From Mastigias papua (taxonomy: Eukaryota; Cnidaria; Scyphozoa; Rhizostomeae; Mastigiidae), in the NCBI GenBank assembly GCA_964019165.1, contig OZ025275.1, forward strand, positions 12,083,030 through 12,147,029: DNA of 64,000 bases. The letters are read 5' to 3'. The notes below the pieces were generated by a model, which was not told where the DNA came from, did not search any database, and was given only the letters and a program-made list of their open reading frames with translations. The position numbers and the translations under genes were made by a program. Shown here piece by piece: positions 36,101-37,307 of the stretch. How positions within the stretch are numbered: the first letter of the stretch is position 1; each line of letters opens with the position of its first letter.

Positions 36101-37307
36101 CCCGATAACTCTCCCGAACAGCTTCCTTTTTGATCAGACACTCTTAAACTTCCTTGTTGTGGCTTTCTTTTTTTCCTATTTATTTTTTTATTCAGCTGAT
36201 ATATATTGTTGTACCAAGCTAGCCAAATATTTACTGCCTAGTTATGTGTGGTATATGACTGGATGGTAGTGAATATGCATTTCATGAATGAGTTTCAAAT
36301 GCATTATTATGTGTGGTGGCAGCAATGAAAGTGCGGGTTTCAATCTAAGTGTTTGCTTTTCCGTACAGTTGTGCTTTTTTACTGTTCTTCCGTTTTTTCT
36401 TGTAATAAAAAATAGACTGAATTTGAATATCTAACTTCCCAGTAGTAATGGTAAATACTGTTGAGATTTCATATCTGTAGGCCACGCGAAGTTTGGAGAC
36501 AGGAGCATTGTTCCAGGAGCAGTGCCTACTTTGGAACCTAGAGGATACAAGACAATGAGTAGTCGCATTCAGAAAGATTTTACATTAGCAAACTACACTG
36601 CCTTACAATTCGAAATGAAAGGGGAAACCCACCCTTACGCATCTATTGATATCAACAGCGAAACAGAACGAAATGGAGTCACTACGGCGGCAACTTATGC
36701 GACTATTTCGGCAGAAGATGATGCTCAATACATGCCTATATGTGAATCGAATTTTGTCAAGGCTTATCCTGTAGATAAATCTTTATCTGCACCTAGTCAC
36801 GATCAGCAAAATGGCCAGCCAGGCTCTGTGTGGCCGGTCTATCAAGAGCTCGAAGTAGAAGCTGGATGTCAACATAGAAGGATACCAGATAAAGTTAATG
36901 ACGGTCGCAACGATGGAGCAGAAATGACAGATCCTGTTGATCATACGTACGCTGAAAGTATCGCGGAACCGTTTTATCATGTTCTGAGTGAAAAGAAACC
37001 TGATACTCAGAAGTGCAAAACTTTAGACCTGAAGAAGGAAGTAGACACCTCTGATGCATATTTAGTTCCGCGAAGATCAAAAAATCTGCCACGCGATTAT
37101 CCCCAAGAGCAGGCTTATCTTCCACCACATTACATACAACCTAACCCGGTTGATATAGCAAATCTCAAAGCGAGGTCTCAACACGAACAATGCGAGGCTG
37201 TTGACGGTGGGTCGCGAAAGACGAGCTCTGTCGGTGAAGTTAGCAGCGTGCCAAGATATGAACCAATCACATCAGAGGACGATATGTATTTAGCTATCAT
37301 GAAGTAG
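21157..37307 (+). CDS. Single-pass Ig/CUB receptor with three ITAM-like motifs
   Basis: Eleven exons join in phase into 980 codons plus stop: 21157-21214, 23876-24175, 26372-26665, 28598-28727, 29297-29457, 30288-30557, 31083-31439, 32001-32318, 33520-33610, 33916-34052, 36481-37307. The start [20 protein letters not shown] is a signal peptide, with an in-frame TGA 12 codon-bases upstream (21142-21144). An I-set Ig domain follows (C48, W62, C100), then an atypical beta-rich segment (119-217). A second Ig domain (C253, W268, C297) is split by an intron, and an Ig-like segment (315-404) has no cysteine pair. Next come a four-cysteine CUB domain (405-523, [12 protein letters not shown]) and a Ser/Thr/Lys-rich stalk (524-629). 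The membrane helix is about 637-657, followed by RRKKLR. The 320-residue tail has about 16 tyrosines; ITAM matches are Y744-I761, Y778-I792 and Y965-I978, plus YKTM. Likely a plasma-membrane recognition receptor signalling through SH2 proteins; ligand unknown. Most ectodomain exons are phase 1-1. Confidence 0.9.
23531..23800 (+). repeat. Low-complexity AATCAATCGATCA-type degenerate repeat
   Basis: Many near copies of CAATCGATCA, CAAACAATCA and similar words just before the first Ig exon (23876). A 90-codon open frame exists but is low complexity with no domain. I read it as intronic tandem-repeat decay. Confidence 0.6.
25128..25412 (-). mobile_element. tRNA-derived SINE
   Basis: On the minus strand it starts GGGTGAGTGGCCAAGCGGTT with a good RNA polymerase III A box (TGGCCAAGCGG). 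A weaker B box (TTTCGAGCC) follows, then a GC-rich body and a pyrimidine-rich end (ACCTTTACCTTTTT). The head resembles a tRNA but would not fold into a complete functional tRNA. It sits in the receptor intron 24176-26371, antisense to the gene. Confidence 0.75.
26733..26888. repeat. (TA)n microsatellite, left flank of a TA-bounded cassette
   Basis: Uninterrupted TA dinucleotides, about 155 bases, in a receptor intron. Together with 26997-27174 it encloses the 108-bp segment holding the best hammerhead-like core. Confidence 0.97.
26888..26989 (-). ncRNA. Hammerhead-ribozyme-like motif of Penelope/retrozyme type
   Basis: On the minus strand CTGATGA (26989-26983) is followed by one extra A, a GGC-TTGT-GCC hairpin and GAAA (26971-26968). 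Stem III could form between ACGT after GAAA and ACGT at 26892-26889. The next base (26888) would be the cleavage nucleotide, right at the edge of the (TA)n tract. Stem I is the weak point, since ACACACA precedes CTGATGA and does not pair directly with the downstream TA run. PLE elements are known to carry hammerhead motifs, and PLE coding sequence starts a few hundred bases away. Activity is unproven. Confidence 0.55.
26997..27174. repeat. (TA)n microsatellite between ribozyme-like segment and PLE
   Basis: About 178 bases of TA, right flank of the ribozyme-like segment and left flank of the PLE remnant. Confidence 0.97.
27340..28310 (+). pseudogene. Penelope-like element remnant: reverse transcriptase and GIY-YIG endonuclease pieces
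   Basis: The RT part reads [20 protein letters not shown] then ANLFLGHYK, the PLE RT signature. The catalytic YVDD is YVHD here (27563-27574), a loss of an active-site Asp. A later frame (about 27808-28032) gives a GIY-YIG-type piece: [20 protein letters not shown] then VREHL. Frames change several times and the 5' part is missing, so the copy is dead. The 3' end has CTGACGA at 28288-28294 and runs into (TA)n at 28311. It lies in the receptor intron 26666-28597 in sense orientation. Confidence 0.85.
28311..28415. repeat. (TA)n tract in two blocks at the PLE 3' end
   Basis: TA runs at about 28311-28371 and 28383-28415 separated by TTAATGACTGAC. They mark the right border of the PLE remnant. 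Confidence 0.9.
28915..29010. repeat. Dispersed repeat, copy 2
   Basis: Similar in word order and orientation to 16270-16400. It lies in the intron that splits the second Ig domain of the receptor gene. Confidence 0.5.
29850..29985 (+). mobile_element. tRNA-derived SINE, family with TCTCGCACTTTCA tail
   Basis: A B box (GAGTTCGAATCTC, about 29922-29934) lies 70 bases into a tRNA-like head (GCCTGATAGCTCTGTTGATAG). The tail GTTATTTTCTCGCACTTTCA is shared with the copy at 38655-38752. About 30 bases around ATCCTGTTGCCTTTACAA occur on both sides (29655-29690 and 29965-30000), perhaps from an older insertion or duplication. It lies in a receptor intron. Confidence 0.7.
35537..35880 (-). repeat. 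TA-rich tract - unique segment - (TA)n cassette with CTGACGA core
   Basis: A long (TA)n at 35688-35880 and a TA-rich stretch at 35537-35561 enclose about 125 unique bases. On the minus strand the segment starts AGCCTGACGATTGGAAACAT, a PLE-terminal-like motif (35677-35683 is the CTGACGA). It then runs through AAAGTTGCTACAGCGCG. It lies in the last receptor intron. Confidence 0.75.

Follow-up and report, generated by a model that had tools for sequence, protein, structure and literature searches.

A jellyfish immunoglobulin-domain receptor gene with paired YxxL/I tyrosine motifs in its predicted cytoplasmic tail

Can a single invertebrate gene carry both the recognition domains of an immunoglobulin (Ig) receptor and several ITAM-like tyrosine pairs, and are such pairs more than a chance feature of a tyrosine-rich tail? 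The question is raised by a locus in the window, the 64,000-nucleotide stretch of Mastigias papua DNA that we analyzed (C12:12,083,030-12,147,029), in which an initial annotation had described an Ig/CUB receptor with three ITAMs in its tail. The genome that we searched comprises 347 Mb in 172 contigs.

We built a splice model of the locus before any relative had been found. The model joins 10 plus-strand exons with AG/GT ends in a single frame that encodes 958 residues, with a stop codon at 37305-37307. The exon joins are in phase 1, except for those inside Ig domain 3 and after the transmembrane helix, which are in phase 2. The tail exon is in phase with the transmembrane and juxtamembrane exons and their AG/GT ends. 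We found one full-length relative, LOC135691963 (P0001), an uncharacterized protein of the scyphozoan jellyfish Rhopilema esculentum, which BLAST aligned with the gene model end to end at 35% identity (349/999 columns). The splice model and this relative together rule out a pseudogene or a chance open reading frame. The exons and other features of the window are listed in Table 1.

Table 1. Positions of the receptor exons, tail motifs, and other features within the window
Feature	Position	Strand	Remarks
138-codon open frame	20219..20632	+	Resembles part of a CENP-B/Tigger-type transposase
Candidate signal-peptide exon, 19 residues	21157..21214	+	Phase 1; five such hydrophobic ATG candidates fit the phase; unproven
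Exon, Ig domain 1 (I-set/Ig_3)	23882..24175	+	Pfam Ig_3, 44 bits (cut-off 30); P0001 19-120, 50% identity
Exon, domain 2	26372..26665	+	Taken as Ig-like from its position and predicted strands alone; P0001 120-215, 45% identity
Fragments in the intron that separates domain 2 from Ig domain 3	27358..28032	+	Resemble a Penelope-like reverse transcriptase plus a GIY-YIG-like stretch
Exon, Ig domain 3, first half	28598..28727	+	P0001 214-261, 57%
Exon, Ig domain 3, second half	29297..29457	+	P0001 259-314, 52%
Exon, Ig-like domain 4, without cysteine	30288..30557	+	
Exon, divergent CUB-like domain	31083..31439	+	P0001 403-527, 34%
Exon, Ser/Thr-rich stalk	32001..32318	+	S or T, 42/106 residues
Exon, transmembrane helix	33520..33610	+	Hydrophobic stretch without a charged residue
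Exon, juxtamembrane cytoplasmic segment	33916..34052	+	
Perfect (AT)96 repeat	35690..35881		In the long intron preceding the tail exon
Last coding exon, cytoplasmic signaling tail and stop codon	36481..37307	+	P0001 704-984, E 6.6e-7
Pair 1, YTAL-x10-YASI	36594..36647	+	Rhopilema, YTAL-x10-YSSL
Pair 2, YATI-x7-YMPI	36696..36740	+	Rhopilema, YAVI-x6-YMPV
Single motif YQEL	36840..36851	+	Kept in Rhopilema
Single motif YHVL	36975..36986	+	Kept in Rhopilema
YxxP cluster (YLVP, YLPP, YIQP)	37059..37142	+	
Pair 3, YEPI-x6-YLAI, C-terminal	37257..37298	+	Rhopilema, YQPI-x6-YLAI
39-bp minisatellite, ~26 copies	44369..45514		Gives a repetitive minus-strand open frame of 436 codons
1015-codon open frame	47669..50713	-	Resembles a LINE-type endonuclease/reverse transcriptase

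In a first domain scan, which took in two of the three forward frames of 22501-37309, only the Ig domain 1 exon stood out above the cut-off, and the exons were therefore scanned singly. The joined halves of Ig domain 3 matched Pfam ig at 29.2 bits (cut-off, 21.8), and Ig domains above the curated cut-off place the product in the immunoglobulin superfamily. We found no Pfam Ig match for domain 2 in the exon-by-exon scan and, for its low-confidence structure model (pLDDT 58.5), no Foldseek match at an E value of ≤0.001. The CUB-like exon scored 17.9 bits against Pfam CUB, whose curated cut-off is 21.4, and matched cubilin with an E value of 3.5e-5; CUB is not among the precomputed Pfam domains of the Rhopilema protein.

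The Rhopilema protein begins with a hydrophobic leader, and helix 628-660 of its structure model is the counterpart of the transmembrane helix. This model had a mean pLDDT of 42.7, from a thin alignment, and Foldseek matched it to contactin-type Ig chains with TM-scores near 0.1, so only domain 4 was taken from it. The low pLDDT of the tail would fit disorder, as a hint and no proof. We concluded that the gene probably encodes a single-pass type I receptor with a signal peptide, four Ig or Ig-like domains, a CUB-like domain, a stalk, one transmembrane helix, and a cytoplasmic tail. The exon model and the domain matches thus support the receptor architecture first proposed, with its Ig domains, CUB-like domain, and tail of paired YxxL/I motifs.

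The tail consists of 321 residues, starting at residue 638, and most of it is encoded by the last exon. It contains 16 tyrosines, eight of them in YxxL/I motifs. All of the motifs named at the outset, the three pairs as well as YKTM, YQEL, and YHVL, are in frame, with YTAL starting at 36594 and YLAI ending at 37298. The canonical ITAM rule is YxxL/I-x6-8-YxxL/I (PMC12058738). Pairs 2 (x7) and 3 (x6) are canonical by this rule, and pair 1, with a spacer of x10 in both species, lies outside it. The x10 pair is a less certain Syk site. A search with the tail sequence for further copies returned the window copy alone (1 match; 2 candidates scored).

We then asked how often such pairs occur in shuffled tails of the same 321 residues. 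At least one x6-12 pair appeared in 3.6% of the shuffles, or in 5.8% when the tyrosines were held fixed, and three pairs appeared in 0 of 20,000 by either procedure. Under the strict x6-8 rule, the two pairs of the window tail were equalled by 1 of 20,000 shuffles and, with tyrosines fixed, by 11 of 20,000.

To see how the motifs fared in a relative, we aligned the two proteins with MAFFT. Identical columns made up 230/499 of the ectodomain, 31/93 of the stalk, and 92/297 of the tail. All eight YxxL/I motifs have counterparts in Rhopilema (YTAL, YSSL, YAVI, YMPV, YQEL, YHVL, YQPI, and YLAI) if V is allowed at the last position. The motif core (the tyrosine and position +3) was identical in 14/16 columns versus 78/281 of the other aligned tail columns (Fisher, 2.4e-6), and an aliphatic +3 residue (L, I, or V) was retained in 8/8 motifs versus 5/21 of the other L/I residues. 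The contrast in the tyrosines themselves was weak (8/8 in motifs versus 4/8 outside YxxL/I; P, 0.08). Pairs 1 and 3 keep their spacers of x10 and x6, with Y and either L or I still in place, and the gap between pairs 1 and 2 is 16 residues in both species. In pair 2, the spacer goes from x7 to x6 and the final I to V. In the YxxP cluster, YIQP is retained, YLVP is replaced by YLQP, and just the tyrosine of YLPP is kept.

By the initial annotation's own standard, an orthologue that lacked the paired tyrosines would have spoken against it; in the one orthologue found, 6/6 are kept, and the conservation is a single comparison. Its count of three ITAMs stands for two canonical pairs and is weakened by the x10 spacer of pair 1 and by the relaxed pair 2 of Rhopilema. 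The PI3K-type YKTM is present in frame, but its tyrosine is not conserved in Rhopilema. By itself, the Rhopilema tail is less striking than the window tail: counting L/I only, its two x6-12 pairs were equalled by 7 of 20,000 shuffles and its one x6-8 pair by 1.5%. A profile search with the two-sequence alignment, which scored the 7993 candidates sharing most words, returned 14 rows, 13 of which were other Ig-domain proteins that matched at most 37% of the query.

When we searched the genome with the Rhopilema protein, we found 15 exon matches (46/65 candidates scored), 7 in the window gene and 8 elsewhere. Two sets of matches, both on C12, read as receptors of similar layout; further matches lie at C25, C15, and C17. 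The match at C12:437469 looks by eye like an Ig-FN3 protein. Paralogue A (C12:12,241,876 to 12,249,526), ~122 kb downstream of the window tail, has Ig, CUB-like, stalk, and transmembrane exons, and we found no tail in the ~16 kb beyond its transmembrane exon. Within C12:12,236,001-12,266,000, a short segment near base 15486 of that region, perhaps a remnant, resembles the juxtamembrane exon of the window gene. Paralogue B (C12:906,598-917,547) lies ~11 Mb from the window gene. Its tyrosine-rich tail, pieced together from five exons by splice rules, has 17 tyrosines, six YxxL/I motifs, and one strict pair, YESL-x7-YQAL; with V allowed, there is an extra pair, YDAV-x8-YEDI.

Paralogue B in turn has a 993-residue relative, P0015 (56% identity over 79% of the query), whose tail contains 15 tyrosines and five YxxL/I motifs. 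We found no x6-12 pair in this tail, even with V allowed. The C-terminal YESL/YQxL motifs, x7 apart in paralogue B, are separated in P0015 by a far longer spacer through extra, partly repeated residues. In the proposed comparison of orthologues and paralogues, the pairs of the window gene are conserved in Rhopilema, and the strict pair of paralogue B is not retained in P0015. ITAM spacing is therefore not family-wide. Tyrosine-rich tails are common to at least two family members, but we could show conserved pairing for the window gene and its orthologue only.

This pattern bears on a possible but not a likely alternative, that the tail is a generic phosphotyrosine scaffold in which YxxL/I and YxxP motifs are read singly by SH2 adaptors and pairing is incidental clustering. 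Its readers would be of the Crk, Grb2, PLC-gamma, or SHP type, as in Gab/IRS-like docking tails. Such a scaffold would suit a tail with 16 tyrosines, two conserved single motifs, and conserved YxxP sites, and paralogue B and P0015 do retain several single motifs where strict spacing is not retained. However, the number of pairs is far above that in shuffled tails, including those with tyrosines fixed, and Rhopilema has the same spacers in pairs 1 and 3 although no more than 92/297 aligned tail columns are identical.

If the pairs are docking sites, the same genome might be expected to encode kinases that read them. A search for the SH2 family gave 57 matches. At C17, two SH2 exons lie 1 kb apart, and the best solved match of both is SYK (E values of 2.9e-41 and 1.7e-43); exons with kinase motifs, recognized by eye, follow downstream. 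At C5, one exon combines SH2 with ankyrin repeats, a second SH2 match lies 4 kb on, and kinase-motif exons, again by eye, come next, which is the layout of SHARK/HTK16 as described in two papers (PMC9486129, PMC10253181). An exon at C19 matches Src across SH2 and kinase (E, 4.8e-130). Judged by these matches, the genome encodes a tandem-SH2 kinase of the Syk type, an SH2-ankyrin protein of the SHARK type, and a kinase of the Src family. Syk homologues are reported (PMC5978004) from invertebrates in which CARD-CC and Bcl10 also occur, and the paper counts cnidarians as species with Bcl10.

We therefore favor, with moderate confidence, a type I receptor that signals through Src-phosphorylated pairs docking Syk or SHARK, and we infer the following steps. 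A ligand would cluster the receptor, and a Src-family kinase would then phosphorylate the YxxL/I pairs. Doubly phosphorylated pairs would dock a tandem-SH2 kinase, Syk or SHARK, in a bidentate manner. The single YQEL, YHVL, and YxxP sites could recruit further SH2 proteins. Docking would be followed by a downstream response. In invertebrates, Draper-Src42A-Shark is one instance of this logic that has been worked out by experiment (PMC4503800).

Two other uses of the motifs seem less probable still. The YxxL/I sequence also fits the YxxPhi sorting rule, and each motif in the tail could thus be a signal for AP-2 endocytosis rather than for kinase docking. We consider this improbable: sorting would presumably require neither fixed spacers nor eight copies, and acidic stretches precede two of the paired tyrosines (EDDAQY and SEDDMY), in keeping with the preference of Src-type kinases for acidic stretches before tyrosine. 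An inhibitory receptor that recruits SHP phosphatases through ITIMs (I/V/L/S-x-YxxI/V/L) would suit the presence of single YxxL/I motifs but is very improbable. It is disfavored by the residues at -2, where I, V, L, or S stands in 0/8 motifs of the window tail and 0/8 of the Rhopilema tail.

Docking of Syk or SHARK by the conserved pairs can be taken further, to a view that we regard as doubtful. The window gene and paralogues A and B would form a small medusozoan family on one contig, with an Ig4-CUB-like-stalk-transmembrane layout and, for two or more of the genes, a polytyrosine tail. This family would be a second, non-Alr recognition system of cnidarians, in which one chain has three working Syk/SHARK docking pairs and the x10 spacer is read by a non-vertebrate tandem SH2. 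If this is true, antigen-receptor logic is in effect present in jellyfish. Such a many-paired, self-contained receptor, which a distant relative also has and whose genome includes Syk, SHARK, and Src genes, offers a compact test system for the age of the ITAM-Syk switch and for the reading of spacers longer than x8.

The literature that we searched, in which subscription papers are poorly covered, yielded no paper on the window receptor. Invertebrate ITAM receptors are few among the papers found. The novelty implied at first was nevertheless too strong, as an oyster receptor, the Hydractinia Alr proteins, and Draper are already described there. What seems new is an architecture that places several pairs on a single chain and that two distant lineages have both retained.

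Draper has an EGF-type ectodomain. Like the window gene, Draper/CED-1 is a single-chain invertebrate receptor, with Src42A-ITAM-Shark signaling; in contrast, Draper also uses NPXY (PMC4503800), and we found no NPXY motif in the 958-residue model or in the Rhopilema protein. By its description in PMC11999971, oyster (Crassostrea gigas) CgIgIT2 is likewise an invertebrate Ig-transmembrane receptor with its own cytoplasmic ITAM, and it differs in combining one ITAM with five Ig domains. The Alr proteins of Hydractinia, with ITAM/ITIM motifs, are cnidarian Ig receptors comparable by description (PMC12065747, PMC11999971), and they differ as a 41-member allorecognition family; the former source also lists hemITAM/ITIM motifs in Botryllus. 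CD3 zeta shares the three ITAMs per chain (PMC12058738), but it is the signaling subunit of a complex, whereas the window gene has ectodomains and tail on one chain. Closest of all is Rhopilema LOC135691963, which is like the window gene in domain order and in all eight motifs and differs in the relaxed pair 2 and in overall sequence.
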